Source: Muricea muricata (taxonomy: Eukaryota; Cnidaria; Anthozoa; Malacalcyonacea; Plexauridae). From it: a DNA stretch of 64,000 nt. Position numbers and translations under genes: made by a program. This document shows positions 1,666 to 30,142 of this stretch, in pieces. The notes beneath the pieces are model-generated. The model was not told the DNA's origin. It ran no database searches and saw only the letters and a list, made by a program, of their open reading frames with translations. Position 1 is the stretch's first letter; each line of letters starts with the position of its first letter. The stretch covers positions 2,916,501-2,980,500 of the forward strand of contig OY979720.1 of NCBI GenBank assembly GCA_963855995.1, in the 5' to 3' direction.

Positions 1666-1720
1666 ATCTGATCTGTGATACAGCTTCTTCTGAATCAGGA
1701 ACAAGGAACTTGCTCGGAGC

Positions 1721-2880: not shown

Positions 2881-5156
2881 GAGGGTGGGAGGTGGATAGG
2901 AGGAGACGGAGCAGGATGTGGGAGTCGTGCAAGGTCGGGATGTTAAAAAAGAACAAGGAATGTTATGTTTTTAATGCCTTTTAGACTTTTCTTGAGGCAA
3001 TTAAAATTCAAACTGTCAAATCCAAACACTGTACAGAATGGCCGACTTTACGTGGTCTTTAGTTTTTACACAACCACTTGCATTGTTATCTTTTGCAGTT
3101 TGTTTACCATTTCAGTTATCTATCTTCAATAGAATTCTTTGAAATTTGTTTGTAGATCGACAAAATGCTTAACCTCCTCTCAACAACTGGCAGATTATGA
3201 AAAATGAAATTGTTAAAGGTATTGGAATATTGCATGTACAATATTGAATATGGGACAATTTGGGACGGTATAATTTTGGACATGACGGTTTCATTCTCAC
3301 CTAATTTGACGATTATTTTGTGGGTACACATACCGTGGAATCTCATGTGCTCCAGAAGCATTTTAATCTTAGAAAAAGTCAAATAATGATGAACTGTGTT
3401 TTAAAAGAAAGTTAGAATCTTATTTGGTTCAAATCAATTGAATTATGGCCCAAGAGTTCATGAAAACACATACAAAAGGCTTTCTTAAAAAACTGAAATA
3501 TCAAATCTAGCAATTTTATATGTTATGCCTCTAAACAACACAATTCTGTTTCTAAAAATTGGTACCCTACTAGACCTATATGCATGATTATACTAATTTG
3601 GACATATTTATTTTTACCCATTAAAATATAAATTTGTGTTTAATCATTCGTGTTTGTCATTATTTGACTTAGTAATGTTGGTTAAACATAAGGAGATTGA
3701 GGTGACTTTGCCAGAAACAAAAACATCCATTATTATACTAACATTTCAATATATGTAGCAATTAAAACTAACCACAGGAAATATATTTCTACTTTTTAAT
3801 TGAAATGTTTCTGTTATATGCACTATATCATATTTTTGATAAAAAATTACAACACCTATGTTATTTCCTGGTTTACTATCTCAATCATCTTTTGTTTAAG
3901 CTGGCTTTGAGTGTTCATTTGAAAGTTTGGAAAGTTCATTTGAAAATCACAATAGTTCTCAATGTTATATTGGACCCTTTAAAGTTAAAAAAATACTTTG
4001 TAATATTTTATACTACTGGTAATTTATCTTAGATACAGACTTTGTGATTTTGTACTAGAATGTTGACTTTCAAACTTTAAGGTGAACTACTTATTAAGGA
4101 CAAAATAAGCTAGCATATTGTCTTTTGTTTACAAAGTGGAACTTGTTTGGAATTGAGATGAACTGATGCAGTTGTTCTTTAACTTTATCAATTAATTACA
4201 TATCTTAAATGAAAAAGAAAACCACAACTTGCCAAATAAATTCTGTGGGCTCTTTTTATTAGCAAAGAAAAGATGTGGCAGATGTAAGAATTTAAGAGTA
4301 AAAAAGTTTCCTTGGACTAAAAAAATTGACAGTATGCCAGATTTTCTAGATAAACAAGCAGTACAGATGTTGGCCAATAATAAGTATAAGTAACTACAAT
4401 TTTTAATTTTAAAAGTTTTCTATTGATGCCTGGATACAGTAAATACTTTACCAGAGTTCTTCGTATTACATCGACTTGAAAAAGTTTTAAGTCACATGAA
4501 GCTTTTAGTTGATACTATGCAATTTCAAATTTTACAGACTTCTTAATTAACATGCCAAATTTACCTTGTTGAACATAAGGTCTTTCCTGAGAAAAAGTAA
4601 AACTGTCTGGCATTATATGGAGTAGAATAATTTAAATTAGTTTGAGACTTTGATTTGATAACAATTTTGATTTGTACTATTTACAATACAAGTGACCGGG
4701 TTGTATCGGATATACAAACCCAAGCTGAAGGCGAGATATCTGACATACACAGATGCGAATGTTGTAAATGGCTTGTGAAACTCGTCAATTTTATACATCA
4801 GATCTATAGCAAAGTGATTTTGAAAATACCGATTCTGTAAGATGAGAAAATGATTTCTTTTGTGTTTCCTGTATGATTTATTACTTTATAAGTTTCTTAA
4901 TTAAAATTACAACATATTGCCTTCTGGAACTTTTTATATTGTTTGGTTGTGGTGAATTTGTATTTTGGCAATTGAAATATTTCTGAATTTGTATGTGCAT
5001 TTCCTTTGCTTCAGTTCAAGTTTATATTTCAAATATTCCACTTTGTAATACTTGCGTGGTAATAATAATATAAGAAAACAGGTTTACATGGCTCTTGAAT
5101 ATAGTCTTTTCAACAAGTAAGTAAAGATGAATTTATACTTCAAAGAGATATGTTCC

Positions 5157-5676
5157 TAACCTGACAATGGTACCTTCCAAAAAGACTAAATTTAAATTGA
5201 TTCTTCGAATAAATTTTTTACTTTTCAATCCAAGATCAATCTAAGTTATGTATTTCTACTTTTATTTTGGTCTCTTTAACATTGAAACTATCAATTGTAT
5301 ATAAAGCACCTTCACTATCGAGTGACTTCATTAGTTGCTGGGCAAAGCCAAAGCATTGATTTTTCGGCTGTTTTCAATGAAAAATAGAATTTTGCCCAAA
5401 GTTATCTCAAATAAATTATCACAATTTGAACAAAAAGCTTCTGTTCTTGTGCCCACCAGAAAAATGAGATGTCTGAGACTTTGTTTGTATTTTTTTGCGA
5501 AAAATAGATCGCATGCACTGTTATGCAAAGAAAAGTGTAAGAGATTGGTTTCTGAAAAATGTCGTGCTACACACAATATTCTAAAAATGCTTGGTTTTTA
5601 TTCTATGTATTTTTGAATTTTTTGTTAAAAAAAATAAAGGTAGCAATGTTTAGTGCATTTCACATTGTCAGGTTAG
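5157..5676. mobile_element. Element bounded by CTAACCTGACAATG inverted ends (left arm)
   Basis: The 14-bp motif CTAACCTGACAATG at 5,157-5,170 is exactly inverted at 5,663-5,676. The mirror copy lies at about 25,167-25,686 in the right arm. The diverged copy has related ends at about 38,814-38,828 and 39,374-39,390. Two open frames (93 and 81 codons) overlap on opposite strands inside it; neither resembles a known protein, so they are treated as chance. The superfamily is not identified. Confidence 0.5.
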
Positions 5677-5984
5677 AAACGCAATAAGAAAAATGTGGCT
5701 CCGAACATTACAGCTTGGTCAATTTGGAATTTATAAAAAAATCGTTTCTTCGTTGTTTTTCGACGTTTTGAAGGGTTGTTTCGAGTACAAAAAAGTATTT
5801 TTAGGAAGAATTATGTGCCCACGTTACATGTCTCAAAGCCATCAAAATTCGTTGGTAATTCGTGCATGTATTTTTTCTGACTTATAAAAGCACAATTGAT
5901 TAAAAATAATATTTTTCTTTTGACAAAAATACCTTTCTTCTGTGAGGCTGGCTGTATTTGAAAAAGCGTTGGTCAACGCTCCGC

Positions 5985-6055
5985 CAAAACTCGTGGGTTT
6001 TCTCCGGGTACTCCGGTTCTTCCCACTGGGAGAGTTGACAGGGTAGTTACATATG
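5985..6055 (+). repeat. SINE-tail-like fragment (left arm)
   Basis: It contains CGTGGGTTTTCTCCGGGTAC followed by TCCGGTTCTTCCCACTGGG. A shorter related string, CCGGGTACTCCGG, follows the tRNA-like unit at about 11,680. That shared tail suggests a SINE-derived remnant. The mirror copy is near 24,788-24,858. There is no tRNA-like head here. Confidence 0.4.
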
Positions 6056-6532
6056 GTTATAAAAATGTGACTAACTTTTGAAAACCTTTCTACTTAGACT
6101 TGTTAAGCCTTCTCGTCATCTCTATCAGTTGCATGTTTTGAGCCACATGTTTTTCTTTGTAATTGTGAAACAACTCGTTATATGCTGGGTAAACCTTTGC
6201 AAAACTCTCAAAATTTATCACTTCAAGTTGTTTCATTGTTATAATATATTTTGAAGTATAAACATTTACTTACGTTGAAAAGACCCAAGTTTTTTAGGAC
6301 TTTGTTCATTCACTTGTGTTATTGTTCTCTCTGCCATGTTCTGTTTTCTTCTGTTGTTATTTTAATAAGTGCAATGTGTGGTAGTTAATCTCTTTTTATT
6401 GTTATTCAAATTGTATGTAATCTTTACAAATTTTTTCAATAAATTGTTTACAAAATTTACTTGTGACCCCTTTTTAATTAAAAATTCAATTCCCATGGGA
6501 ATTGAGAAATTGAATAAAAAAAATCCCCCTAC

Positions 6533-6646
6533 CCCGGCCAGCTCCCCAAGTGCCACTTCCACCTAAGTAGAAGTACTTATACATGTAGTACAAGTACTTC
6601 TACTTATTCACGGTGGAAGTAGCACTCGGAGAACTGGCCGGGGTAG
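6533..6646. repeat. Inverted-repeat hairpin element (left arm)
   Basis: CCCCGGCCAGCTCCCC at the left and its imperfect complement ending GGCCGGGG enclose a nested hairpin, AAGTAGAAGTACTT with its complement, around tacatgta. The same structure is in the right arm at about 24,197-24,310 and in the diverged copy near 37,929-38,042, so it predates the palindrome. Confidence 0.6.
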
Positions 6647-7481
6647 CCGGCAAAGAGAAGACCAACTTTGCAAGTGCTAATACAATTGCTAAGTTGATCT
6701 TCCCTAGAGAGCAGCCGCGCGTACCTAACAAATTAAAACAACAAACGTTAGTGACTTAAGTACTTAGCATGCAAATTTGATTCCCAAAGCCAAAATGTCA
6801 AGTGCCCCCCGCTGATCCTACCAACTGCCTACCTGCCTCAGTTCTAAGCTGTCTTCCTCAGTTCTAAGCTCCTGCATTCCATTCGTTACCTTCACTTTCC
6901 TCACCATCGCACAGTCACTCACAGCTGATAAACCCGCATGCACCACCACCACCCTGACTGCCACCCAATTTCGAAAATTAAAAGAGTTAAAATTTCGGTA
7001 AAGTATGCATTTTAAATGCAATTTATTTGGATATTTTAGATCAAACGTAAACAGAAAAAGCTCGTACATAAAAACAGGTGAGAATTCTATTTAAAATTTG
7101 CTTGCAAAATATAAAACTTAATTCGCATTTTTCTTAGTTAATAGTATAGATCAATTTCGTTGATGTTGGAACCTACTCTTAACTGTTTTGTTAGAAGTGA
7201 CGACAGATTTTGGTTTTTAAGCATACTTTCAAAAATTTTAATTCCTTTAATAAACCTAACCCCATGCAACTTACACACGGCGCACACCCTCGCAGTCCAT
7301 ACATTTAGCTAATAAATTACGTTATAAACAAAAAAGCAAAATAAAAAGATAAATTACGTTATCTCTAGCTACTTAAACCCACTTAGACTGAGTTTTTGAT
7401 TGAATTTTCAAACGTAAAACCTTAGCTGAATGGGCATGGGCTTTTCGTTGTGTTAACTGTTCCGGAGTAAATATAAACCTG

Positions 7482-7721
7482 GGGCCGGTTGTATCAAAGG
7501 CGTTTAGCTTAAACGGTGGATAAGTGAAATTTAAAAATCAGTTTTACACCTAGTACGGAACCGAAATTATGAGTTGAAATAGAATAAATATTTAGTTTTA
7601 TATATAATTGTTCTTCTCAGGTCAAATAACTTCAGCTGGTTTGTTTATACAACATGGAAACGTGTTTCATATTTTTGACTTATCCACCGTTTAAGCTAAA
7701 CGCCTTTGATACAACCGGCCC
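7482..7721. mobile_element. MITE with GGGCCGGTTG ends and 3-bp target duplication (left arm)
   Basis: The 240-bp element starts GGGCCGGTTGTATCAAAGG and ends in its reverse complement. CTG flanks it on both sides (7,479-7,481 and 7,722-7,724). The mirror copy spans about 23,122-23,361. The diverged copy has the unoccupied site at 37,051-37,060 (tatcaggttt), which confirms insertion with a 3-bp duplication. It is non-coding. A 3-bp duplication would suit a PIF/Harbinger-type mover, but the CTG target is not the usual TWA, so the class is uncertain. Confidence 0.8.
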
Positions 7722-8224
7722 CTGATACTTACCAAAGTCCAAGGCTGGGTCAAATAAGCATGAGAATTAGGCAAAAATAAAAAGCAATTGAAACTCAACA
7801 GATTCACTAAAGTTGTTTTTTTTTTTGGCAACTTATATCCTTAAGTGTAGATGACATGCAATTTTTAATGCCGTAATTCTCACACTTATTTAACCGAAAC
7901 GCCTTCATTTGCATGGTACCTCGCAGCTGCTCTCAAACCACCTTCGTAATTTGCTTTAGTGTACACAAACAATGACTTCATTGTTCCTGCTTACCAAAAC
8001 AAATCTGAAAGCACCAAGATACTTATCATATTAATAATCAAAGAGGATTCGCATTATGCAGTAATTACCATAAACAGACACATCACCATTGAAACAAAGC
8101 ATGCCGTATTCCCATGGGAATTTAAAATGCACAAAAAAATATAATGATCCTACTGATTTGCATGGATGTATGAACCAAATTAGCTAAGAAACAAAGAAAT
8201 GATATATTCCCTTGGGAATTTAAT

Positions 8225-8454
8225 GTAGCAAAAAGATGGCGGGTGTTGATTTTACCAGAATGCCTTGCGGTCTGAAATCGTTTAAAAACTTAAGGTAAAT
8301 TAACCTCGTTTGAGGAACAGACAGATAGGTTATTTTGTCACTTGTGTTAAAATTCCGTCCATTAGCTTATGTTAAATATCATTTCACTGCTATTCTTGAT
8401 TGATACCCGCATTAAATTCTGGTAAAATCGACATGCCACCATTTGTTTTGCTAC
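8225..8454. mobile_element. Small inverted-repeat element, left-arm copy
   Basis: The ends are GTAGCAAAAAGATGGC and a complementary end ...TTTTGCTAC. It belongs to the same family as 2,531-2,765 and has its mirror at 22,390-22,619. No open frame is worth noting. Confidence 0.65.
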
Positions 8455-8871
8455 GGTGAATTGGAATACAAGTCAAATTTTCTCGCTTTTTAACCAGAGA
8501 ACACATTCTTTAAAGGTAGAACGACGGAATTGATCGTTTACAATCGACGCCATCTTTGTTGACGTTTGAAACACATGGCAACCACAAAGTATCTATTCAT
8601 TATATCTGATCCTATCGAGCCATACATCTTTAAAGTATCATTCATAGTACGCTAAAACTAACGATGAAATAGTAAATTGACACAAGTACTTCGCTGTAAA
8701 CAGCTGAAGTAATCTGCAGAGTCAACCAAGATGGCGCTCAATCACACGAAATGACGGCATGTGCAAACCAAAAATAGTGACCAAATGCATCAACTATAAT
8801 TTAGTGGCATTATTACGAAACTTATTTTTGTAAAACGTTTAATCCTACATGTTATTTTGTTTTGTTTTTAG

Positions 8872-8917
8872 AAATATCCAAATCCAAATGTCAGAGACGA
8901 AATTTCCAAGCGTAAAG
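8872..8917 (+). pseudogene. Exon-like 46-nt remnant, possibly homeodomain-like
   Basis: A pyrimidine-rich tract ending in AG precedes 8,872 and a GT donor follows 8,917. The enclosed frame reads KYPNPNVRDEISKRK, which loosely recalls the loop and second helix of homeodomains. The mirror copy at 21,927-21,972 has a TAA stop in the same frame. No partner exons are seen. It is either a dead exon carried in the repeat or a chance match. Confidence 0.15.
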
Positions 8918-11555
8918 GTATTGTTTCTTTAAAAAATATTGTCGACATTTACCATATTTTTACCTGTTTTTTGACTCGAAAATTGACTGCCAAACTCCTA
9001 GGTATTCTATTTAATTATTTTGTTGAATGTATTTGATATCAATGTTATTTCAATCCAATTTTTTTCACTTAATTTGCTGTCTTCTCTTTTTCATTAACGA
9101 GAAATATCTATTAAATCCTCTTTGATCCCTCAATAATAAGTATCTTGTTTTCTACTAACTTGCACATTACCACTACTTTCTATTACAATGTCGTGTCTTC
9201 TCATTCTTGTGGATTGTTGTTTTGTGGGTCTTGTCGTCCAGGATCGTTCATTCTTTTCTTTTCTTGTGCGTTTTTTTCACATCCCATCACCCTTTGCAAT
9301 AGTAGAAAGAATTAAATCATGAGATGATAGTTACGAGTAATTTATAAACTATAACATATTAAACAATTATTGGATGAGGTTTTTGTGATATGCGGAATTA
9401 TCAATGTCGAGGTAAGAGTTATCAGCCGAGCCGAAGGCGAGTCAGATAACTCTTACCGAGAGATTGATAATTTTGCATATCACAAAAACCGAATCCGATA
9501 ATTGCTTTATTATACATTTTAAGTCTTTTTCCTCGAGCAATTGACGCATTTCGCCCTCGGAAGAGCTTAAAAAGGAAGATGCCATAACATGAAACAGAAA
9601 ATATCGAAAAAATGTTGTTGCCATGCCAACCATTGATGCCAACGAATACCGCATACTGTAATAATCTGCACCGTAGGCTCAACATCCAGATAACTCAGTT
9701 ATCTGCTAGCAGATAACTGAGTTATCTGCAGATTGTGTGATAGTCGCATTTATCTGCATACAACTGATCAATCACAACGCATAAAACAACTGCAATGTAT
9801 AATAAAATAGTTTATTAATTAGGCCGGCCAAATTATTGTGTAAGCTGTTAATATGAAATTTTTTTATTAAAATCTCGAGAATCATTAGTAAATCGTGAAC
9901 AAAACACAAAAGAAAATCATAGCCGTGAAGGAGTCTTTATTTCTCACACGCACACAACTTGCAGCTACCCTAATTTATGATTTTAAATCAAAATATCTCG
10001 AGAATTAAACAACACGTAAGGAATGTGTAAATTCTTAAAGCTCTTTCGAACAATAAAAATTAATATCTCGCACTAATCTCTCTCAAAAGCTCTCTCAAAT
10101 TTATTACCAATATCTCTTCAACTATTACTTTGCAGGTGAAATGTAACTTCTATCAAAACTAGCTTACTTCAAGTTGTTTGGGAATTAAGATTTTACGTGT
10201 CAACGAGATCAAATATGAATCTAAGATGGCAGACAGCGCATTAAATTTCTATCTTTACGACCAACTCCCCAACGAAAGGCTTTAATTCGCTCGAAAGTCG
10301 AATTTTGTTTTTTTATTGTTTAATGTAGTGAAAGATCCTGTGTGCTTTTTACAGCACTGCCAACACTAGCAACGTTAGTGCGAGATGTTAATTTTTATTG
10401 AAACGAAAGCTGAACTGCTAAAGAAAATAGAAACGACAAGATAAAATCAAAAAACTTACTTTCACTCTATCTTTGGATCTTCTTGGCTTCGGTTGTTCTC
10501 GTTTCATCATGCTGTTTATGGTTTCATCTGGTTGGCGCACTCTCTTCATGGAACATCACGCCGGTCCAGTAGGTAACTAGCTCACTCGTGTCCAGTCAAC
10601 CAACATAAAATAAGGAGAAAATTAATGTTACAAAATATTTTAGAATATAGGACACTAAGCGTTAATTGAAATTGACTTTAACAAACCGTACATTGTGATA
10701 GTATTTGCATCTTAACATCTGATGGAGACGGCTTGTGATTTACTTCTTATGTCGATATGAATTCTTTCCCATCTTGTTGCGTCATTAGTTGATGGTTGTT
10801 GTATTCACTTTTTACTTGGCATTCTTTGAAAAAAAAATTACGATGTTCAGAAAACTGTTTACAAGATAAGCAAAGAAAACTACGTTCACAAGCATTAGAG
10901 AGGACTAAGTAATTATAATAGGCGTGACAGGTCACAGAGGTTAGTCGACGAAGAAACTCATGGACAAATTCCCGGCATGATGATATTCCGATAGCAAGAA
11001 GTACAGCAAGTGTAGAACGTGTACGTGTAAGCTTAAACTGTATCTATGCAACTCCAAGAAAAGCGCAACACAAAATGGCGGAATTTAAAGACATTTCTGG
11101 TGTCATTTCCAGTTCCCTAACTTTCGCGGACAAATATATTTATATATTTTTCTCAAATTTTTTTGAAGTAAATCTAGATGGATTTTGTGAATAAACAAAT
11201 TAAAAAAAGTATTGCCCACGTTAGGAAACTAGAACGGGCGCCCAAGAATGCCCACAATTTCTCCAATCTGGATTATATTTATTGATTGCGCAAATGACTG
11301 ATAAAAAATAAGAGAGTAATAAAATACCAAATGGTTTCCTCTTCAAGATAGTGTCATACATGCGCGCGGCATTTCGGGATATTTGGGAAAACTCGTGTTG
11401 AAGTTGAACCTAAGGCAACATGCCAAGTACATGGATGACGCTATCCTGCTCAGGAAACTATTTAGTAATTGTCTTACAAAATGATGACAGTGAAACACAA
11501 GTCAACGCCACGGCATTTAAATTTCTCGTGTAGGATTGTTTGATCCTGCACAGTA

Positions 11556-11740
11556 ATAGCCAAGTGGCGCAATCGTCAGAGCAAACGCCTATCACATGTG
11601 AGGTCGTGGGTTCAATCCTTACTTCAGACTCGTGACACCCATGTGAGGAGTTAGTCAGTCGTGGGTTTATTCCGGGTACTCCGGTTTGCGAATGTTGACT
11701 GGATGGTTAAAATTGTAAAATATCAGTAATCACCGGAACA
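11556..11740 (+). repeat. tRNA-derived SINE (left arm)
   Basis: The sequence carries a pol III A-box-like TGGCGCAATCG and, about 40 bases on, a B-box-like GGGTTCAATCC. A tail with CCGGGTACTCCGG follows. The head does not fold as a complete tRNA and lacks a clear anticodon arm, so it is a SINE rather than a tRNA gene. The mirror copy lies at about 18,380-18,560. Confidence 0.6.
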
Positions 11741-14700
11741 CGGGTACTTAACTAAACTGCTGACGATGAGGCGGAACTCATAATGAATTAATGAAAATGT
11801 GTTTCACTGTAGTTATCATATAATGTAATTGCCAAGCTGAATGAATAATTCTCCAGTAACTACGTCATATGAATAACTTACAATTATGAGAGTAGTGGGG
11901 GGGGGGGGGCAGCATAAAGATTGAAGTAGTGTCAAGGAAGGGGTACTACCCTGACGGGTACTAGGCGAAGAAGTAGAGTAAACAGGAGGAAGAAGATTAA
12001 ATTGGAGTAAATAAGGGGGATTGGGGTAAAGAACGGGAGAAGCAGGATAAAGAAACCAGTGGAAGGGGGTGCTATCCTGGAAGGAGTACCCGGGAAAGAA
12101 GAGGGTGAACAGGAGGAAAAGTAGATTGGAGAAAAGAAAGGGGAAATTAAACGGATCAGGAAATTCAGACTTGCAATTCAAATGAAAGGCAGCTCATTGG
12201 TCATGTAAACACTCGTTGAATCATGGTTCTCGCTTGCCTTTAGCTTGGAATCATCTTTGAATTTGAACTGAAAGTCTGAATTTGCATGTTTCTTGTATAG
12301 AGTGCAGTGTATCAGAACAGAAGAGGTTTTGAAGAAAAAGAAAGAAAGAATAAAAGTAAGTTAAAATTTGTAAAGAATAATGAAGAAACTATTGGTACAG
12401 CACTTGATACATGATGATAATCATCATTATAAACTCTCTATTAATCCGGGGGGGGGGGGTATAATAGAGAATTTGCAATGATAGTAAGTATATTGTAATA
12501 TTTGGGTTTTTACCACTAAATCCTTTTGAAAGTTCTTTTTGGCTGTGGCTTCTCTCATCACAGTTGTCTGTGCTTGTCTTGCAAAATCTCTGGAATATCT
12601 ATAACGTGAAGGTCAATATTTAAGATTAGAAAAATAGAAACCGTAAAATAGAAAGAAATTTAAATCGTGGCGAATACTTTTTACGGTCTTGCTGGCATGA
12701 CAAAAAGAGAGTATAGATTTATAAGATCATGTTGATTTATCCTTTATCTGAACTATATTTAACTTAGATTTTAAAATAGATTTCACCCTGGTAAGCAGAC
12801 CGAATGGGTTTTCAAACAAGATAACATTTAATGACTAAAACGTGCACAGAATAGTTAGAGAATGCTTACATGTCGAATAAAAATCCAATACTTTTAATGT
12901 CCAACTACACAATAGCGATTTTCGTTGCATTTCTAGACTGGAGAAGAAGACGACGCCATTTTGATTTTGATTTCTCCCGACAACGGCAGATTTGTCTTCG
13001 CAATTTTTTTCCATTTCTTCGTCGTTTTAGCTCCAATTTGCTCGTTGTGTTTCTTTCGTACCTTCCTCGCCATTTCCGTACAATCAATGGACATTTATAC
13101 TCAAGATTAAGACTGTATTGAGACTTTCAAAATGTTCGTCAGGAGACATAAAAATCGAAGCTTCTTCTTCGGGTTGCAGAAGCAAATGACGTCAGACGAC
13201 CTTTGTCCGCCAGCAAATACCCGTATGTATAACATTCAATGATCTTTTTAGGAAGCTGAAAATCGGTTTTTATTGCGCGAACGAAGTGTTTTTGCCATTA
13301 TTTCTTACTCAGGTCTTTGTTCTGCTACTTTACTTCATGTTTACTTAGGTAACTTGCCAAAAGAAACGCCTGTAAGGGACAATTTTGCAATTTTTTTTAT
13401 TTGGATGCTGATGAACAAGGGAAGACTCGTTAAAGCTTTCATTGGCAAATATCTTTCCCTCCGTGGCCGAGAGGTAAAGACAACTGTCTTGACTTCGATT
13501 TTGGGTGGATCGAGGACCGGTCCAGTTCAACTGAGTTTGGTAAGAATTTAATTCTGATCGATGCTCGATCCACCCAAAACTGAAGTCAAAGCTGGGCGTG
13601 GAGTGCAGGAAAACACTAGGCAGTACCGCGAGGCCGAGGAGGCAAACGTTATTTTCCCAGCGTTGTTAACTAATATTTAAGCAAATTTCATTAACTTGAC
13701 TGTTGGGGACAGACCTGTAGGGTTGGTGCATTGAAGACTTCTCGTCGTTATTTCCCTTCGTTCAAGAAGACAAGTTGTCTTCATCGAGAAATAACGACGA
13801 AAAGACTTCAAGACACCACTAAACCACTACACTTTAAAGCTACAGTGTAGTGGTTTAGCTAGCTAAACCACTACACTGTGCCAATAATATATGGCTGACT
13901 TCTTCCTAACGCTTACGGTACGATCATGGATGCGCAAAGATGCGCAAACACATTAAAGCCTTGAAAGCAAGTGTTTTCTTTTAGGAAAGAATCAAGGACG
14001 ACAACGCTTACTAAATCAAAGCCGTCTAGTCATGTTTTAAGTACTTCAGCTGTTTAACGATCTTTTACCAGATCTTTGCAAGAGGAAAAGTAAAATTTTG
14101 CATCATTATTATTAACTTTCCGTCAGTCGTTTCTTTCTTGATCGAGCATTATATGCCATTGTGTTCAGTGTCCTTGATATAGGAGCCATATACTTATGGC
14201 CTTGGGTTTAATTCCCAAACACTGAATGGCAGTGTTTTGCTCTTCCAATGAGATAACAAGATGGCACTGTAGAACGCGTGGTTTTATATAAGCTACGAGC
14301 GTCAAGATATCCTTGATAGGTAACTATTGATCCTACAATGGACACTTATGTTCACTGCCAATAGGAACGTTTCCAACTCACAGCTTGTACATAATGGATT
14401 TTATAGGTTGTGTCACAAGGAAACTGCAGTTCGGTCGTAAAATCAACTTGTTTTCAAGGTTGCCGGGTTTTAAACATTACTGACACTGTTAATGTTGTAG
14501 CTCGGAATTGTAAAACAACGGCGGCAATGCAGTTTTCTTGTGCCATAACCTGTAAAATGGGTGGTTTTATCATTTATATAAGCTACGACCGCCAAGCTTT
14601 ATCCTTGATAGGAAACAATTGATCCCACCAACGACATTTGTATTCTCTACCGATAGGAACGTTTGAGACTTACAGCTTGTACATAACGCATTTTATCGGT

Positions 14701-14780
14701 GAGTCGTAAAACCAACCTGTTACTGCTCAGCAAACTACCAGTTCCCTCGATCAACGATAGTCGATGAAGCTTGGCGCTCG

Positions 14781-15355: not shown

Positions 15356-18300
15356 CGAGCGCCAAGCTTCATCGACTATCGTTGATCGAGGGAAATGGTA
15401 GTTTGCTGAGCAGTAACAGGTTGGTTTTACGACTCACCGATAAAATGCGTTATGTACAAGCTGTAAGTCTCAAACGTTCCTATCGGTAGAGAATACAAAT
15501 GTCGTTGGTGGGATCAATTCTTTCCTATCAAGGATAAAGCTTGGCGGTCGTAGCTTATATGGTTATGGCACAAGAAAACTGCATTGCCGCCGTTGTTTTA
15601 CAATTCCGAGCTACAACATTAACAGTGTCAGTAATGTTTAAAACCCGGCAACCTTGAAAACAAGTTGATTTTACGACCGAACTGCAGTTTCCTTGTGACA
15701 CAACCTATAAAATCCATTATGTACAAGCTGTGAGTTGGAAACGTTCCTATTGGCAGTGAACATAAGTGTCCATTGTAGGATCAATAGTTACCTATCAAGG
15801 ATATCTTGACGCTCGTAGCTTATATAAAACCACGCGTTCTACAGTGCCATCTTGTTATCTCATTGGAAGAGCAAAACACTGCCATTCAGTGTTTGGGAAT
15901 TAAACCCAAGGCCATAAGTATATGGCTCCTATATCAAGGACACTGAACACAATGGCATATAATGCTCGATCAAGAAAGAAACGACTGACGGAAAGTTAAT
16001 AATAATGATGCAAAATTTTACTTTTCCTCTTGCAAAGATCTGGTAAAAGATCGTTAAACAGCTGAAGTACTTAAAACATGACTAGACGGCTTTGATTTAG
16101 TAAGCGTTGTCGTCCTTGATTCTTTCCTAAAAGAAAACACTTGCTTTCAAGGCTTTAATGTGTTTGCGCATCTTTGCGCATCCATGATCGTACCGTAAGC
16201 GTTAGGAAGAAGTCAGCCATATATTATTGGCACAGTGTAGTGGTTTAGCTAGCTAAACCACTACACTGTAGCTTTAAAGTGTAGTGGTTTAGTGGTGTCT
16301 TGAAGTCTTTTCGTCGTTATTTCTCGATGAAGACAACTTGTCTTCTTGAACGAAGGGAAATAACGACGAGAAGTCTTCAATGCACCAACCCTACAGGTCT
16401 GTCCCCAACAGTCAAGTTAATGAAATTTGCTTAAATATTAGTTAACAACGCTGGGAAAATAACGTTTGCCTCCTCGGCCTCGCGGTACTGCCTAGTGTTT
16501 TCCTGCACTCCACGCCCAGCTTTGACTTCAGTTTTGGGTGGATCGAGCATCGATCAGAATTAAATTCTTACCAAACTCAGTTGAACTGGACCGGTCCTCG
16601 ATCCACCCAAAATCGAAGTCAAGACAGTTGTCTTTACCTCTCGGCCACGGAGGGAAAGATATTTGCCAATGAAAGCTTTAACGAGTCTTCCCTTGTTCAT
16701 CAGCATCCAAATAAAAAAAATTGCAAAATTGTCCCTTACAGGCGTTTCTTTTGGCAAGTTACCTAAGTAAACATGAAGTAAAGTAGCAGAACAAAGACCT
16801 GAGTAAGAAATAATGGCAAAAACACTTCGTTCGCGCAATAAAAACCGATTTTCAGCTTCCTAAAAAGATCATTGAATGTCATACATACGGGTATTTGCTG
16901 GCGGACAAAGGTCGTCTGACGTCATTTGCTTCTGCAACCCGAAGAAGAAGCTTCGATTTTTATGTCTCCTGACGAACATTTTGAAAGTCTCAATACAGTC
17001 TTAATCTTGAGTATAAATGTCCATTGATTGTACGGAAATGGCGAGGAAGGTACGAAAGAAACACAACGAGCAAATTGGAGCTAAAACGACGAAGAAATGG
17101 AAAAAAATTGCGAAGACAAATCTGCCGTTGTCGGGAGAAATCAAAATCAAAATGGCGTCGTCTTCTTCTCCAGTCTAGAAATGCAACGAAAATCGCTATT
17201 GTGTAGTTGGACATTAAAAGTATTGGATTTTTATTCGACATGTAAGCATTCTCTAACTATTCTGTGCACGTTTTAGTCATTAAATGTTATCTTGTTTGAA
17301 AACCCATTCGGTCTGCTTACCAGGGTGAAATCTATTTTAAAATCTAAGTTAAATATAGTTCAGATAAAGGATAAATCAACATGATCTTATAAATCTATAC
17401 TCTCTTTTTGTCATGCCAGCAAGACCGTAAAAAGTATTCGCCACGATTTAAATTTCTTTCTATTTTACGGTTTCTATTTTTCTAATCTTAAATATTGACC
17501 TTCACGTTATAGATATTCCAGAGATTTTGCAAGACAAGCACAGACAACTGTGATGAGAGAAGCCACAGCCAAAAAGAACTTTCAAAAGGATTTAGTGGTA
17601 AAAACCCAAATATTACAATATACTTACTATCATTGCAAATTCTCTATTATACCCCCCCCCCCCCGGATTAATAGAGAGTTTATAATGATGATTATCATCA
17701 TGTATCAAGTGCTGTACCAATAGTTTCTTCATTATTCTTTACAAATTTTAACTTACTTTTATTCTTTCTTTCTTTTTCTTCAAAACCTCTTCTGTTCTGA
17801 TACACTGCACTCTATACAAGAAACATGCAAATTCAGACTTTCAGTTCAAATTCAAAGATGATTCCAAGCTAAAGGCAAGCGAGAACCATGATTCAACGAG
17901 TGTTTACATGACCAATGAGCTGCCTTTCATTTGAATTGCAAGTCTGAATTTCCTGATCCGTTTAATTTCCCCTTTCTTTTCTCCAATCTACTTTTCCTCC
18001 TGTTCACCCTCTTCTTTCCCGGGTACTCCTTCCAGGATAGCACCCCCTTCCACTGGTTTCTTTATCCTGCTTCTCCCCTTCTTTACCCCAATCCCCCTTA
18101 TTTACTCCAATTTAATCTTCTTCCTCCTGTTTACTCTACTTCTTCGCCTAGTACCCGTCAGGGTAGTACCCCTTCCTTGACACTACTTCAATCTTTATGC
18201 TGCCCCCCCCCCCCCCCCACTACTCTCATAATTGTAAGTTATTCATATGACGTAGTTACTGGAGAATTATTCATTCAGCTTGGCAATTACATTATATGAT

Positions 18301-20319
18301 AACTACAGTGAAACACATTTTCATTAATTCATTATGAGTTCCGCCTCATCGTCAGCAGTTTAGTTAAGTACCCGTGTTCCGGTGATTACTGATATTTTAC
18401 AATTTTAACCATCCAGTCAACATTCGCAAACCGGAGTACCCGGAATAAACCCACGACTGACTAACTCCTCACATGGGTGTCACGAGTCTGAAGTAAGGAT
18501 TGAACCCACGACCTCACATGTGATAGGCGTTTGCTCTGACGATTGCGCCACTTGGCTATTACTGTGCAGGATCAAACAATCCTACACGAGAAATTTAAAT
18601 GCCGTGGCGTTGACTTGTGTTTCACTGTCATCATTTTGTAAGACAATTACTAAATAGTTTCCTGAGCAGGATAGCGTCATCCATGTACTTGGCATGTTGC
18701 CTTAGGTTCAACTTCAACACGAGTTTTCCCAAATATCCCGAAATGCCGCGCGCATGTATGACACTATCTTGAAGAGGAAACCATTTGGTATTTTATTACT
18801 CTCTTATTTTTTATCAGTCATTTGCGCAATCAATAAATATAATCCAGATTGGAGAAATTGTGGGCATTCTTGGGCGCCCGTTCTAGTTTCCTAACGTGGG
18901 CAATACTTTTTTTAATTTGTTTATTCACAAAATCCATCTAGATTTACTTCAAAAAAATTTGAGAAAAATATATAAATATATTTGTCCGCGAAAGTTAGGG
19001 AACTGGAAATGACACCAGAAATGTCTTTAAATTCCGCCATTTTGTGTTGCGCTTTTCTTGGAGTTGCATAGATACAGTTTAAGCTCACACGTACACGTTC
19101 TACACTTGCTGTATTTCTTGCTATCGGGGTATCATCATGCCGGGAATTTGTCCATGAGTTTCTTCGTCGACTAACCTCTGTGACCTGTCACGCCTATTAT
19201 AATTACTTAGTCCTCTCTAATGCTTGTGAACGTAGTTTTCTTTGCTTATCTTGTAAACAGTTTTCTGAACATCGTAATTTTTTTTTCAAAGAATGCCAAG
19301 TAAAAAGTGAATACAACAACCATCAACTAATGATGCAACAAGATGGGAAAGAATTCATATCGACATAAGAAGTAAATCACAAGCCGTCTCCATCAGATGT
19401 TAAGATGCAAATACTATCACAATGTACGGTTTGTTAAAGTCAATTCAATTAAAGCTTAGTGTCCTATATTCTAAAATATTTTGTAACATTAATTTTCTCC
19501 TTATTTTATGTTGGTTGACTGGACACGAGTGAGCTAGTTACCTACTGGACCGCCTTGATGCTCCATGAAGAGAGTGCGCCAACCAGATGAAACCATAAAC
19601 AGCATGATGAAACGAGAACAACCGAAGCCAAGAAGATCCAAAGATAGAGTGAAAGTAAGTTTTTTTATTTTATCTTGTCGTTTCCATTTTTTTAGCAGTT
19701 CAGCTTTTGTTTCAATAAAAATTAACATCTCGCACTAACGTTGCTAGTGTCGGTAGTACTGTAAAAAGCACACAGGATCTTTCACTACCTGAAACAATAA
19801 AAAAAAACAAAATTCGACTTTCGAGCGAATTAAAGCCTTTCGTTGGGGAGTTGGTCGTAAAGATAGAAATTTAATGCGCTGTCTGCCATCTTAGATTCAT
19901 ATTTGATCTCGTTGACACGTAAAATCTTGATTCCCAAACAGCTTGAAGTAAGCTAGTTTTGATATAAGTTACATTTCACGTGCACAGTAATTCTCAAAGA
20001 GATATCGGCAATAAATTTGAGAGAGCTTTTGAGAGAGATTAGTGCGAGATATTAATTTTTATTGTTCGAAAGAGCTTTAAGAATTTACACATTCCTTACG
20101 TGTTGTTTAATTCTCGAGATATTTTAATCTAAATTCATAAATTAGGGTAGCTGCAAGTTGTGTGCGTGTGAGAAATAAAGACTCCTTCACGGCTATGATT
20201 TTCTTTTGTGTTTTGCTCACGATAATGATTAATGATTCTCGAGATTTTAATAAAAAAATTTCATATTAACAGCTTACACAATAATTTGGCCGGCCTAATT
20301 AATACTATTTTATAATATA

Positions 20320-20550
20320 CTGAGTGTCAAAGTTCATTTATTCCTGTTTCTTATTGGTTAAGAACGTATCACGTGATAGTGGAGAAATTCTATTGTCTCC
20401 CTGGCAACGTAGCTAAGCGGTGGACATTACTTTTATTCACCGGTAGACAACAAATCCACAAAGCCTCACGTAGCCATGTCAGGTAAAAGGTAATCCTTTT
20501 TACACATGTTTGATTGATTTGTGGTACTTTTCTTCTCTTTTGGCACTCAG
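20320..20550. mobile_element. Right-arm-specific element with CTGAGTG ends
   Basis: CTGAGTGTCAAAG at 20,320 is inverted, with one change, as CTTTTGGCACTCAG ending at 20,550. TATA flanks both ends, fitting a TA-type target. The left arm lacks it, so it arrived after the arms separated or is polymorphic. It is 231 bp and non-coding. Confidence 0.65.
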
Positions 20551-20563
20551 TATATAATAAAAT

Positions 20564-20669
20564 ACTTATTGACTGAGACCTCGGGAAAGCAGTATGTTTT
20601 GTGGACCCTCGACATCGACAGTCTCTGGTCCACAAAACATACTGTTTCCCTCGGTCTCAGTCAATAAGT
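20564..20669. mobile_element. Right-arm-specific hairpin, 106 bp
   Basis: ACTTATTGACTGAGACC at 20,564 pairs with GGTCTCAGTCAATAAGT ending at 20,669, and the inner sequence (tatgttttgtggacc) is also inverted. It is absent from the left arm. It lies 13 bp from the preceding element, so the two may have moved or nested together. Confidence 0.6.
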
Positions 20670-20764
20670 GTTAATTACTATACATTGCAGTTGTTTTATG
20701 CGTTGTGATTGGTCAGTTGTATGCAGATAAATGCGACTATCACACAATCTGCAGATAACTCAGT

Positions 20765-20988
20765 CATACAATAAGAATACATAGAAGTGCCACTCAGCAG
20801 TGCAACATGTCACACTATGTTTATGCAGTTTACTGGCTGCCACCAGCCAGTTCAGCATTCCTATTGGCCAGAAAATGCAATTGACTGGCTGAGAAAATGC
20901 TAATAACGTGCGTAATGCGACATGCGCGGCTTCAAAAACTCCAAAGGCTCCGACGCAAGTGGCCCTTCTATGTATTCTTATTCTATGG
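20765..20988. mobile_element. Right-arm-specific MITE with CTCAGT target duplication
   Basis: The left end is CATACAATAAGAATACATAG and the right end is its near complement, ending TTCTATGG. CTCAGT lies immediately on both sides (20,759-20,764 and 20,989-20,994) and once at the empty site in the left arm, within the 42-bp palindrome at about 9,690-9,730. Interior sequence resembles 45,648-45,802 in inverted orientation. Confidence 0.75.
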
Positions 20989-21363
20989 CTCAGTTATCTG
21001 CTAGCAGATAACTGAGTTATCTGCATGTTGAGCCTACGGTGCAGATTATTACAGTATGCGGTATTCGTTGGCATCAATGGTTGGCATGGCAACAACATTT
21101 TTTCGATATTTTCTGTTTCATGTTATGGCATCTTGCTTTTTAAGCTCTTCCGAAGGCGAAATTCGTCAATTGCTCGAGGAAAAAGACTTACAATGTATAA
21201 TAAAGCAATTATCGGATTCGGTTTTTGTGATATGCAAAATTATCAATGTCTTGGTAAGAGTTATCTGACTCGCCTTCGGCTCGGCTGATAACTCTTACCT
21301 CGACATTGATCATTTCGCATATCACAAAAACCTCATCCAATAAGTGCTTAATATGTTATAGTT

Positions 21364-21449
21364 TACTTATTAAGCTTTGTGGAAACACCACGTAAATTTA
21401 TTATTGCAATAATAAATTTACGTGGTGTTTCCACAAAGCTTAATAAGTA
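21364..21449. repeat. Perfect 86-bp palindrome
   Basis: The 43 bases up to 21,406 are the exact reverse complement of 21,407-21,449, centred on TTGC|AA, with no loop. It sits in a segment of about 134 bp absent from the left arm. The segment is bounded by direct repeats of atgttatagttta, one ending at 21,365 and one near 21,488. It would form a strong cruciform or hairpin. Confidence 0.8.
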
Positions 21450-22389
21450 TATTGTATTCACCATGCAAACGTACAAGAAACTTATCATGTTATAGTTTAT
21501 AAATTATTCGTAACTATCATCTCATGACTTAATTCTTTCTACTATTGCAAAGGGTGATGGGATGTGAAAAAAACGCACAAGAAGAGAAAAGAATGAACGA
21601 TCCTGGACGGCAAGACCCACAAAACAACAATCCACAAGAATAAGAAGACACGACATTGTAATAGAAAGTAGTGGTAATGTGCAAGTTAGTAGAAAACAAG
21701 ATACTTATTATTGAGGGATCAAAGAGGATTTAACAGATATTTCTCGTTAATGAAAAAGAAAAGACAGCAAATTAAGTGAAAAAAATTGGATTGAAATAAC
21801 ATTGATATCAAATACATTCAACAAAATAATTAAATAGAATATCTAGGAGTTTGGCAGTCAATTTTCGAGTCAAAAAACAGGTAAAAATATGGTAAATGTC
21901 GACAATATTTTTTAAAGAAACAATACCTTAACGCCTGGAAATTTCGTCTCTAACATTTGGATTTGGATATTTCTAAAAACAAAACAAAATAACATGTAGG
22001 ATTGAACGTTTTACAAAAATAAGTTTCGTAATAATGCCACTAAATTATAGTTGATGCATTTGGTCACTATTTTTGGTTTGCACATGCCGTCATTTCGTGT
22101 GATTGGGCGCCATCTTGGTTGACTCTGCAGATTACTTCAGCTGTTTACAGCGAAGTACTTGTGTCAATTTACTATTTCATCGTTAGTTTTAGCGTATTAT
22201 GAATGATACTTTAAAGATGTATGGCTCGATAGGATCAGATATAATGAATAGATACTTTGTGGTTGCCATGTGTTTCAAACGTCAACAAAGATGGCGTCGA
22301 TTGCAAACGATCAATTCCGTCGTTCTACCTTTAAAGAATGTGTTCTCTGGTTAAAAAGCGAGAAAGTGTGACTTGTATTCCAATTCACC

Positions 22390-22619
22390 GTAGCAAAACA
22401 GATGGTGGCATGTCGATTTTACTAGAATTTAATGCGGGTATCAATCAAGAATACCAGTGAAATGATATTTAAGATAAGCTAATGGACGGAATTTTAACAC
22501 AAGTGACAAAATAACCTATCTGTCTGTTCCTCAAACGAGGTTAATTTACCTTAAGTTTTTAAACGATTTCAGACCGCAAGGCATTCTGGTAAAATCAACA
22601 CCCGCCATCTTTTTGCTAC
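22390..22619. mobile_element. Small inverted-repeat element, right-arm copy
   Basis: Mirror copy of 8,225-8,454, with GTAGCAAAACAGATGG at one end and GCCATCTTTTTGCTAC at the other. Confidence 0.65.
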
Positions 22620-23121
22620 ATTAAATTCCCAAGGGAATATATCATTTCTTTGTTTCTTAGCTAATTTGGTTCATACATCCATGCAAATCAGTAGGATCAT
22701 TATATTTTTTTGTGCATTTTAAATTCCCATGGGAATACGGCATGCTTTGTTTCAATGGTGATGTGTCTGTTTATGGTAATTACTGCATAATGCGAATCCT
22801 CTTTGATTATTAATATGATAAGTATCTTGGTGCTTTCAGATTTGTTTTGGTAAGCAGGAACAATGAAGTCATTGTTTGTGTACACTAAAGCAAATTACGA
22901 AGGTGGTTTGAGAGCAGCTGCGAGGTACCATGCAAATGAAGGCGTTTCGGTTAAATAAGTGTGAGAATTACGGCATTAAAAATTGCATGTCATCTACACT
23001 TAAGGATATAAGTTGCCAAAAAAAAAACAACTTTAGTGAATCTGTTGAGTTTCAATTGCTTTTTATTTTTGCCTAATTCTCATGCTTATTTGACCCAGCC
23101 TTGGACTTTGGTAAGTATCAG

Positions 23122-23361
23122 GGGCCGGTTGTATCAAAGGCGTTTAGCTTAAACGGTGGATAAGTCAAAAATATGAAACACGTTTCCATGTTGTATAAAC
23201 AAACCAGCTGAAGTTATTTGACCTGAGAAGAACAATTATATATAAAACTAAATATTTATTCTATTTCAACTCATAATTTCGGTTCCGTACTAGGTGTAAA
23301 ACTGATTTTTAAATTTCACTTATCCACCGTTTAAGCTAAACGCCTTTGATACAACCGGCCC
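23122..23361. mobile_element. MITE with GGGCCGGTTG ends, right-arm copy
   Basis: Mirror copy of 7,482-7,721 flanked by CAG. The empty target is visible in the diverged copy at 37,054-37,056. Confidence 0.8.
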
Positions 23362-26300
23362 CAGGTTTATATTTACTCCGGAACAGTTAACACAACGAAA
23401 AGCCCATGCCCATTCAGCTAAGGTTTTACGTTTGAAAATTCAATCAAAAACTCAGTCTAAGTGGGTTTAAGTAGCTAGAGATAACGTAATTTATCTTTTT
23501 ATTTTGCTTTTTTGTTTATAACGTAATTTATTAGCTAAATGTATGGACTGCGAGGGTGTGCGCCGTGTGTAAGTTGCATGGGGTTAGGTTTATTAAAGGA
23601 ATTAAAATTTTTGAAAGTATGCTTAAAAACCAAAATCTGTCGTCACTTCTAACAAAACAGTTAAGAGTAGGTTCCAACATCAACGAAATTGATCTATACT
23701 ATTAACTAAGAAAAATGCGAATTAAGTTTTATATTTTGCAAGCAAATTTTAAATAGAATTCTCACCTGTTTTTATGTACGAGCTTTTTCTGTTTACGTTT
23801 GATCTAAAATATCCAAATAAATTGCATTTAAAATGCATACTTTACCGAAATTTTAACTCTTTTAATTTTCGAAATTGGGTGGCAGTCAGGGTGGTGGTGG
23901 TGCATGCGGGTTTATCAGCTGTGAGTGACTGTGCGATGGTGAGGAAAGTGAAGGTAACGAATGGAATGCAGGAGCTTAGAACTGAGGAAGACAGCTTAGA
24001 ACTGAGGCAGGTAGGCAGTTGGTAGGATCAGCGGGGGGCACTTGACATTTTGGCTTTGGGAATCAAATTTGCATGCTAAGTACTTAAGTCACTAACGTTT
24101 GTTGTTTTAATTTGTTAGGTACGCGCGGCTGCTCTCTAGGGAAGATCAACTTAGCAATTGTATTAGCACTTGCAAAGTTGGTCTTCTCTTTGCCGGCTAC
24201 CCCGGCCAGTTCTCCGAGTGCTACTTCCACCGTGAATAAGTAGAAGTACTTGTACTACATGTATAAGTACTTCTACTTAGGTGGAAGTGGCACTTGGGGA
24301 GCTGGCCGGGGTAGGGGGATTTTTTTTATTCAATTTCTCAATTCCCATGGGAATTGAATTTTTAATTAAAAAGGGGTCACAAGTAAATTTTGTAAACAAT
24401 TTATTGAAAAAATTTGTAAAGATTACATACAATTTGAATAACAATAAAAAGAGATTAACTACCACACATTGTACTTATTAAAATAACAACAGAAGAAAAC
24501 AGAACATGGCAGAGAGAACAATAACACAAGTGAATGAACAAAGTCCTAAAAAACTTGGGTCTTTTCAACGTAAGTAAATGTTTATACTTCAAAATATATT
24601 ATAACAATGAAACAACTTGAAGTGATAAATTTTGAGAGTTTTGCAAAGGTTTACCCAGCATATAACGAGTTGTTTCACAATTACAAAGAAAAACATGTGG
24701 CTCAAAACATGCAACTGATAGAGATGACGAGAAGGCTTAACAAGTCTAAGTAGAAAGGTTTTCAAAAGTTAGTCACATTCTTATAATCATATGTAACTAC
24801 CCTGTCAACTCTCCCAGTGGGAAGAACCGGAGTACCCGGAGAAAACCCACGAGTTTTGGCGGAGCGTTGACCAACGCTTTTTCAAATACAGCCAGCCTCA
24901 CAGAAGAAAGGTATTTTTGTCAAAAGAAAAATATTATTTTTAATCAATTGTGCTTTTATAAGTCAGAAAAAATACATGCACGAATTACCAACGAATTTTG
25001 ATGGCTTTGAGACATGTAACGTGGGCACATAATTCTTCCTAAAAATACTTTTTTGTACTCGAAACAACCCTTCAAAACGTCGAAAAACAACGAAGAAACG
25101 ATTTTTTTATAAATTCCAAATTGACCAAGCTGTAATGTTCGGAGCCACATTTTTCTTATTGCGTTTCTAACCTGACAATGTGAAATGCACTAAACATTGC
25201 TACCTTTATTTTTTTTAACAAAAAATTCAAAAATACATAGAATAAAAACCAAGCATTTTTAGAATATTGTGTGTAGCACGACATTTTTCAGAAACCAATC
25301 TCTTACACTTTTCTTTGCATAACAGTGCATGCGATCTATTTTTCGCAAAAAAATACAAACAAAGTCTCAGACATCTCATTTTTCTGGTGGGCACAAGAAC
25401 AGAAGCTTTTTGTTCAAATTGTGATAATTTATTTGAGATAACTTTGGGCAAAATTCTATTTTTCATTGAAAACAGCCGAAAAATCAATGCTTTGGCTTTG
25501 CCCAGCAACTAATGAAGTCACTCGATAGTGAAGGTGCTTTATATACAATTGATAGTTTCAATGTTAAAGAGACCAAAATAAAAGTAGAAATACATAACTT
25601 AGATTGATCTTGGATTGAAAAGTAAAAAATTTATTCGAAGAATCAATTTAAATTTAGTCTTTTTGGAAGGTACCATTGTCAGGTTAGGAACATATCTCTT
25701 TGAAGTATAAATTCATCTTTACTTACTTGTTGAAAAGACTATATTCAAGAGCCATGTAAACCTGTTTTCTTATATTATTATTACCACGCAAGTATTACAA
25801 AGTGGAATATTTGAAATATAAACTTGAACTGAAGCAAAGGAAATGCACATACAAATTCAGAAATATTTCAATTGCCAAAATACAAATTCACCACAACCAA
25901 ACAATATAAAAAGTTCCAGAAGGCAATATGTTGTAATTTTAATCAAGAAACTTATAAAGTAATAAATCATACAGGAAACACAAAAGAAATCATTTTCTCA
26001 TCTTACAGAATCGGTATTTTCAAAATCACTTTGCTATAGATCTGATGTATAAAATTGACGAGTTTCACAAGCCATTTACAACATTCGCATCTGTGTATGT
26101 CAGATATCTCGCCTTCAGCTTGGGTTTGTATATCCGATACAACCCGGTCACTTGTATTGTAAATAGTACAAATCAAAATTGTTATCAAATCAAAGTCTCA
26201 AACTAATTTAAATTATTCTACTCCATATAATGCCAGACAGTTTTACTTTTTCTCAGGAAAGACCTTATGTTCAACAAGGTAAATTTGGCATGTTAATTAA

Positions 26301-27980
26301 GAAGTCTGTAAAATTTGAAATTGCATAGTATCAACTAAAAGCTTCATGTGACTTAAAACTTTTTCAAGTCGATGTAATACGAAGAACTCTGGTAAAGTAT
26401 TTACTGTATCCAGGCATCAATAGAAAACTTTTAAAATTAAAAATTGTAGTTACTTATACTTATTATTGGCCAACATCTGTACTGCTTGTTTATCTAGAAA
26501 ATCTGGCATACTGTCAATTTTTTTAGTCCAAGGAAACTTTTTTACTCTTAAATTCTTACATCTGCCACATCTTTTCTTTGCTAATAAAAAGAGCCCACAG
26601 AATTTATTTGGCAAGTTGTGGTTTTCTTTTTCATTTAAGATATGTAATTAATTGATAAAGTTAAAGAACAACTGCATCAGTTCATCTCAATTCCAAACAA
26701 GTTCCACTTTGTAAACAAAAGACAATATGCTAGCTTATTTTGTCCTTAATAAGTAGTTCATCTTAAAGTTTGAAAGTCAACATTCTAGTACAAAATCACA
26801 AAGTCTGTATCTAAGATAAATTACCAGTAGTATAAAATATTACAAAGTATTTTTTTAACTTTAAAGGGTCCAATATAACATTGAGAACTATTGTGATTTT
26901 CAAATGAACTTTCCAAACTTTCAAATGAACACTCAAAGCCAGCTTAAACAAAAGATGATTGAGATAGTAAACCAGGAAATAACATAGGTGTTGTAATTTT
27001 TTATCAAAAATATGATATAGTGCATATAACAGAAACATTTCAATTAAAAAGTAGAAATATATTTCCTGTGGTTAGTTTTAATTGCTACATATATTGAAAT
27101 GTTAGTATAATAATGGATGTTTTTGTTTCTGGCAAAGTCACCTCAATCTCCTTATGTTTAACCAACATTACAAAGTCAAATAATGACAAACACGAATGAT
27201 TAAACACAAATTTATATTTTAATGGGTAAAAATAAATATGTCCAAATTAGTATAATCATGCATATAGGTCTAGTAGGGTACCAATTTTTAGAAACAGAAT
27301 TGTGTTGTTTAGAGGCATAACATATAAAATTGCTAGATTTGATATTTCAGTTTTTTAAGAAAGCCTTTTGTATGTGTTTTCATGAACTCTTGGGCCATAA
27401 TTCAATTGATTTGAACCAAATAAGATTCTAACTTTCTTTTAAAACACAGTTCATCATTATTTGACTTTTTCTAAGATTAAAATGCTTCTGGAGCACATGA
27501 GATTCCACGGTATGTGTACCCACAAAATAATCGTCAAATTAGGTGAGAATGAAACCGTCATGTCCAAAATTATACCGTCCCAAATTGTCCCATATTCAAT
27601 ATTGTACATGCAATATTCCAATACCTTTAACAATTTCATTTTTCATAATCTGCCAGTTGTTGAGAGGAGGTTAAGCATTTTGTCGATCTACAAACAAATT
27701 TCAAAGAATTCTATTGAAGATAGATAACTGAAATGGTAAACAAACTGCAAAAGATAACAATGCAAGTGGTTGTGTAAAAACTAAAGACCACGTAAAGTCG
27801 GCCATTCTGTACAGTGTTTGGATTTGACAGTTTGAATTTTAATTGCCTCAAGAAAAGTCTAAAAGGCATTAAAAACATAACATTCCTTGTTACTCCGCCT
27901 GCCGTAGGCGAGGCGGAGTTTTAAATTCGCCCCGTTTCTGTTTTTTTTTTTTTTTTTTTATTTTTTTTCGGTGTCAGAAG

Positions 27981-30139: not shown

Positions 30140-30142
30140 GAG

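Follow-up and report, generated by a model that had tools for sequence, protein, structure and literature searches.

What a near-perfect palindrome of about 25 kb is doing in the genome of Muricea muricata, and where it came from, is the question raised by the window, the whole stretch of 64,000 nucleotides analysed here; palindromes with 12-kb arms are expected to be unstable. Self-BLAST bore out the original prediction of such a palindrome, resolving it into a left arm of 11.8 kb and a right arm of 12.5 kb, of which the outer block (2952-9357 against 27891-21487) is 99.56% identical over 6406 bp and by itself puts the match far beyond chance. Further inward, a second block (9798-14550 against 20317-15561) reaches 98.97%, followed by smaller blocks up to 14788/15350. 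The parts of the palindrome are as follows:

2952-14788, plus strand: left arm, from self-BLAST and arm alignment
14789-15346, plus strand: central spacer of 558 bp, with 98.7-100% identity in the 19 other copies examined
15347-27891, minus strand: right arm, terminating in ACATTCCTTGTT, from self-BLAST and arm alignment

The spacer had been placed at 14,781-15,355 with a length of 575 bp, of which its existence holds and its size is corrected to 558 bp. Likewise, the near-constant sum of paired coordinates that had been claimed is found in the outer part (30,843) and drifts inward, because 134, 230 and 363 bp are additional in the right arm and 25 bp in the left. Divergence between the arms is patchy, with about 0.1% over 2952-8370, about 2-4% over 8371-11029 and about 0.15% over 11030-14575, and the indels of 134, 230 and 363 bp fall with the diverged stretch. 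The long palindrome, known here from the assembled sequence, is real.

It is also not alone. The genome searched comprised 453,007,491 bases in 74 contigs, with the window on contig C5, and for a 2-kb piece across the left edge of the palindrome the best 40 of 1525 candidates were all reported at 100% identity (rounded). A 40-mer from the outer arm (up to three mismatches) occurred 259 times in forward and 253 times in reverse orientation, giving approximately 512 arm ends, while the reversed 40-mer used as control had zero occurrences genome-wide. All of the first 100 of the 512 listed places matched without mismatch; 84 of them formed 42 inward-facing pairs, 16 were unpaired, and no outward-facing pair within 35 kb occurred among these 100. 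One pair spanned 12,428 bp and the rest 24,176-28,103 bp, with a median of 24,932 bp across the 42 pairs. From about 512 ends we infer about 250 near-identical copies, which together would take up about 6.4 Mb, equal to 1.4% of all bases searched. Solo arms as the source of the unpaired ends were rejected, as six of the seven examined (out of 16) keep the palindrome centre and the opposite arm at the expected distance and are complete palindromes whose other end only diverges from the search word; the seventh does not. A unique inverted duplication is likewise rejected by the genome-wide matches to the arm edge and the 40-mer, and the suggestion of a rare, isolated structure (sex chromosome, amplicon or recent inverted duplication) is not supported in view of about 512 arm ends.

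The same data bear on assembly, since the main alternative originally put forward was a head-to-head joining of two haplotypes, to which fold-back reads, reportedly described as artefacts, can be added. The same centre and edges recur at many sites, a pattern not expected of a local haplotype join, the 42 pairs among the first 100 of the approximately 512 ends have closely similar spans, the flanks differ from copy to copy, and other copies repeat the asymmetry of the spacer as well as the arm indels. The one locus in favour of such a fault is C8:11987232 (L049/L050), where the flanks are identical on both sides beyond a truncated element (0 differences in 801), and overall we regard an artefact as highly improbable. 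At L049/L050 the identical sides point either to an inverted duplication of greater length or to a fault in assembly.

Two structural variants were noted within the family. A half-size palindrome (L047/L048, C4:3809194-3821621) of 12,428 bp with arms of 5,924 bp corresponds to the full form with an asymmetric deletion in its centre. In a centre variant (L098, C4:2629795-2631195) the spacer breaks off at 14836, where it connects to the opposite arm at 14495/15616.

Where the mobile unit ends was determined by following 38 arm ends outward. Eighteen, the window included, continue through 2951-1666 and 895-665, 14 join a second element at position 2187, and six match neither type. Among first-type ends, 16 of 19 reach TT|ACTCCGCCTGCCGTAGGCGAGGCGGAGT and then pass into unrelated DNA: 14 of the 16 fetched 5' ends begin at the exact 28-mer, in 14 of 14 cases after TT, to which the window left end and end c2R are added, and the remaining three (L049, L050 and c2L) are truncated about 100 bp short. 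At the other side, all six 3' ends followed (five of the 14 second-type ends plus the window) stop at GGCAGGCGGAGTGAACGCCTTAGCAGGCGTCTTGTT, again followed by unrelated DNA. The flanks thus turn unrelated at these 5' and 3' ends and not at the arm edge; 2952-27891, previously taken as the full extent, does not mark the ends of the mobile unit, as the common structure reaches beyond the left edge to 286. The junction at M1/2187 was considered as a unit boundary and rejected, being internal. In the window, the unit is composed as follows:

286-33502, plus strand: composite unit of Helentron-like 5' end, putatively captured palindrome and downstream Helentron-like element with 3' end, from ends, flanks and empty site
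286-313, plus strand: palindromic repeat ACTCCGCCTGCCGTAGGCGAGGCGGAGT at the 5' terminus, directly after TT, from end comparison and folding
286-693, plus strand: A1, fragment from the 5' side of a Helentron-like element; in another copy, the opening 398 bp of the downstream element A2 match it at about 87% identity
888-1672, unstranded: fold-back insertion of 785 bp, 98% self-inverse; other first-type copies pass from 895 to 1666 without it
2187-2951, plus strand: M1, outer arm segment, mirrored at the far arm in other copies and missing from the window right arm
27892-33502, plus strand: A', downstream Helentron-like element with nested insertions, joined directly to the right arm
29322-30130, unstranded: nested element inside A', bounded by terminal inverted repeats of 311 bp, from self-BLAST
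32531-32917, plus strand: 31-bp minisatellite inside A'
33467-33478, plus strand: 3' subterminal inverted repeat GGCAGGCGGAGT, exact reverse complement (12/12) of ACTCCGCCTGCC at 286-297
33481-33496, plus strand: 3' stem-loop ACGCCTTAGCAGGCGT with a 6-bp stem, followed by the CTTGTT end at 33502

The 5' repeat (282-311) folds at -10 kcal/mol, equalled by one of 200 shuffles, and the fold of the 3' stem-loop is not exceptional (equalled by 20 of 200 shuffles). In copies traced outward on both sides, one end is of the 5' type and the other of a different, 3' type, except in C4:3559070 (L058, L059), which has the 5' 28-mer at both ends with differing flanks. The window copy departs from the common plan, in that its right arm lacks M1 and adjoins A' directly, and this A' belongs to a subfamily 91-94% identical over most blocks to the same element in five other copies (89% in one block of about 179 bp), whereas the downstream elements of those five are 98-99% identical among themselves. 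Furthermore, taken together with the bases next to it, the 28-mer has 602 + 520 occurrences genome-wide, indicating a larger Helentron family of which the palindrome-bearing unit is a part. A fold-back insertion of about 700-785 bp is present towards both unit ends, at 888-1672 and, inside A', at 30140-30835. At another site (L052, C3:37805147-37805947) the 3' end of a neighbouring Helentron lies immediately against the 5' end of a palindrome unit, so that the two stand in tandem.

The DNA on either side of the window copy supplied an empty site, made up of two parts:

1-285, plus strand: left flank, diverged arm homolog matching right arm 19231-19494 and extending left beyond the window
33503-41363, plus strand: right flank, where the diverged homolog resumes in separate blocks, from arm 19493 to 27775

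The copy therefore sits within a diverged homolog of its own arm, that is, a paralogous empty site. When the flanks are joined, TAACATTAATT|TTATCT matches TAACATTAATTTTCTCC of the arm, which denotes insertion into a T-run, and no target-site duplication was present in this one paralogous empty site. Identity of the homolog to the arm ranges from 70 to 89%, block by block. Leftward it takes in the palindrome centre but no more than 1.1 kb of the opposite arm, with its own inverted repeat 76% identical, and the next 11.6 kb further left have no match to the arms; on these alignments, the homolog could be either an old copy with one arm lost or the locus from which the palindrome derives. A genome query with 33600-35200 gave one full-length match among the best 40 of 1396 candidates, in a list dominated by a 380-bp repeat. 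This repeat (34704-35087 in the right flank) has dozens of copies at 94-99% identity, also on contigs C1-C3, among the matches listed. One block of the homolog, 37513-38237, is 92-93% identical to the arms, in surroundings of 72-83%.

The arms appear noncoding. The mirror-image open frames remarked upon earlier are present, but close to chance in number and length by simulation: the longest arm frame has 125 aa against a simulated mean of 131, and frames of at least 55 aa number 55 against 54.3, with a mild excess only for those of at least 80 aa (17 against 12.0, sd 2.8, maximum 18 in 100 simulations). Pfam gave no match for 14 frames, namely 13 of the 66 listed frames of at least 55 aa in 284-15346 and one in A', so that coding cargo was rejected and, among these 14, no transposase gene was seen in the unit. 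Moreover, known RNA families and tRNAs were absent at the thresholds used.

Taken together, the palindrome is probably carried as cargo by a composite Helentron-like rolling-circle transposon of the non-autonomous (HINE) kind. HINEs are described as noncoding, with palindromic subterminal inverted repeats of 12-15 bp, a 3' stem-loop, tandem repeats and insertion at T-rich targets without target-site duplication (PMC4067079). The palindromic subterminal repeats, 3' stem-loop, minisatellite and T-rich target without duplication found here fit a non-autonomous Helentron, and in detail the unit resembles HINE/DINE-1 elements in being noncoding with 12-bp palindromic subterminal repeats, 12/12 complementary (ACTCCGCCTGCC, GGCAGGCGGAGT), in the 3' stem-loop near the end and internal tandem repeats, and in the target, with TT before 16 of 16 full 5' ends and no duplication in the one paralogous empty site (PMC4067079). 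It differs in that its stem-loop lies 6 bp from the end compared with 8-35 bp published, that its 3' subterminal repeat lies 24 bp from the end, outside the published range of about 38-60 bp, and that a palindrome this large is not among the HINE features described in the sections of that source drawn upon here (PMC4067079). A 3' subterminal repeat about 20-40 bp from the end is given for Helitron2 ends in Fusarium (PMC5148889), which the 24-bp spacing fits, and we therefore take it as variation inside Helentron/Helitron2.

For cargo acquisition, the accepted route in Helitrons is bypass of the terminator up to the next downstream one, with captures of up to 39 kb in maize (PMC6431247). Such a bypass would directly produce the order observed, i.e., a piece of 5' Helentron, the palindrome and a whole second Helentron: A1, a 5' fragment without its own terminator, would have been copied through the adjacent palindrome to the terminator of A2, the next Helentron downstream, with Rep/helicase supplied by an autonomous Helentron, and the composite would then have multiplied in one recent burst. 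As in Helitron capture, this involves read-through to a downstream terminator, and the unit of about 30 kb stays within the 39 kb of maize, whereas a 25-kb noncoding palindrome takes the place of gene fragments as cargo and the composite itself has reached hundreds of copies, unlike the captures covered there (PMC6431247). In the window copy, the last six bases of the right-arm terminus ACATTCCTTGTT are those of the true 3' end of the unit (CTTGTT), making early termination plausible; this copy may have terminated at the arm edge, beside a resident Helentron. Against the composite-Helentron reading stand the 5' sequence at both ends of C4:3559070, which simple rolling-circle copying does not predict, the truncation of 3 of 19 5' ends, the 6 of 38 arm ends of neither type, the deviating plan of the window copy, the unremarkable 3' stem-loop and the lack of a visible transposase gene.

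Two long inverted arms around a short spacer, and the 28-mer at both ends of C4:3559070 with different flanks, could also come from a giant fold-back or terminal-inverted-repeat transposon with its own transposase, next to which the Helentron pieces would be later arrivals or chance neighbours. For Galileo, 191 copies are given for one genome, the longest of 9,021 bp, with a 7-bp target-site duplication, and its TIR-only copies of up to 9 kb share with the present unit long inverted repeats, a spacer and the lack of a transposase, in the portion of that study used here (PMC4168063). The present palindrome differs in its 25 kb and in the missing duplication at the one empty site, compared with 9,021 bp and 7 bp in Galileo (PMC4168063). 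Besides the empty site, the followed ends, which are unlike each other at the 5' and 3' sides and built as in Helentrons, and the flanks, which become unrelated at these Helentron-type ends rather than at the arm edge, make a fold-back transposon unlikely. For the composite Helentron, the machinery is ordinary as far as seen and the cargo is unusual. Our literature search on coral and large palindromes, foldback and giant transposons, Helitrons and octocoral transposable elements, covering mostly titles and abstracts, with subscription journals and preprints largely outside it, returned no description of such an element. If correct, this reading would demonstrate movement of about 30 kb by Helentrons, and the hundreds of near-identical copies would offer a natural experiment on the survival and copying of long palindromes and on what keeps their arms alike.

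That last point can be addressed by comparing arms within and between copies, and the predicted arm-to-arm exchange is supported. In 13 copies, the arms of one copy differed by 4.08 per 1540 bp, compared with 7.05 between copies, and none of 5000 permutations was as low; variants found on exactly two arms were on both arms of one copy in four of four cases (0.16 expected). Over the outer 5.4 kb of three fully compared copies, identity was 99.83-99.87% within and 99.39-99.65% between copies. Exchange is not uniform, as within copy C2 the inner arms reach 98.39% identity, which is below the identity of copy C2 to the window copy (98.54-99.25%). In the diverged arm middle, the window left arm matches the right arm of copy C2 at 99.55% and the window right arm its left arm at 99.38%, implying that this middle is older than the dispersal. 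Furthermore, the strand of the spacer is linked to its offset in 19 of 19 other copies (copy C2 and 18 picked for spans of 24,863-24,969 bp; arm side inferred from the offset except for the window and copy C2), and three further copies, from unpaired ends, fit. The window copy is the exception and thus probably underwent an arm-to-arm crossover. Taken literally, C5:5477294 and C4:5902605 also contradict the linkage, but a displacement of about 0.66 kb at their right ends makes it inapplicable to them. In four copies with two differently typed ends the 5' type lies beside the same arm, and C4:3417775, with one end typed, has it opposite.

Within the composite-Helentron reading, we attribute the likeness of arms within copies to such gene conversion after insertion. 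Long arms kept alike through arm-to-arm exchange are familiar from the sex-chromosome palindromes of mammals and willow, from which the present ones differ in being dispersed, mobile and apparently gene-free. As rolling-circle transposons are believed to have a single-stranded stage, during which arms of this kind would pair, the likeness could instead arise during transposition, by the single-stranded palindrome folding on itself and having its mismatches repaired. The within-copy likeness (4.08 against 7.05; four of four doubletons) suits this, as does the persistence, in both copies compared, of the unpaired blocks of 134-363 bp that repair would skip; ordinary arm-to-arm conversion, however, accounts for these data too, and an exchange of markers is seen in the window copy, which makes repair in transposition the less likely account.

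The copies also appear unevenly distributed. Among the best 40 of the 1525 edge matches, all are on contigs C4-C15, and the first 100 of the 512 40-mer places, which reach as far as C6, divide into C1 0, C2 0, C3 4, C4 27, C5 40 and C6 29, although C3 has 60.7 Mb, C1 at least 118.6 Mb and C2 at least 68.8 Mb, compared with 17-19 Mb for C4-C6. The Helentron 28-mer, in contrast, is common on C1-C3 in the first 100 places listed. The palindrome unit thus seems to avoid the three largest contigs, among the matches listed; if correct, this would be a case of mobile copies restricted to some of the chromosomes. A bolder proposal, which we consider somewhat less probable again than repair in transposition as such, is that the strand folds into a 12-kb hairpin at each jump and its arms are repaired, so that mobility itself maintains the palindrome, kept mainly on small chromosomes; if true, this would be a self-renewing mobile palindrome.

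Finally, host genes lie beside the insertion, a fibrinogen C-domain gene at 44144-45056 and an Nkx6-like homeobox gene at 48829-51631, whose homeobox frame (51212-51631) is Nkx6-like. Some unnamed relatives of this frame score higher still, and the best matches among named relatives are in the octocorals Dendronephthya (74%) and Xenia (70%).
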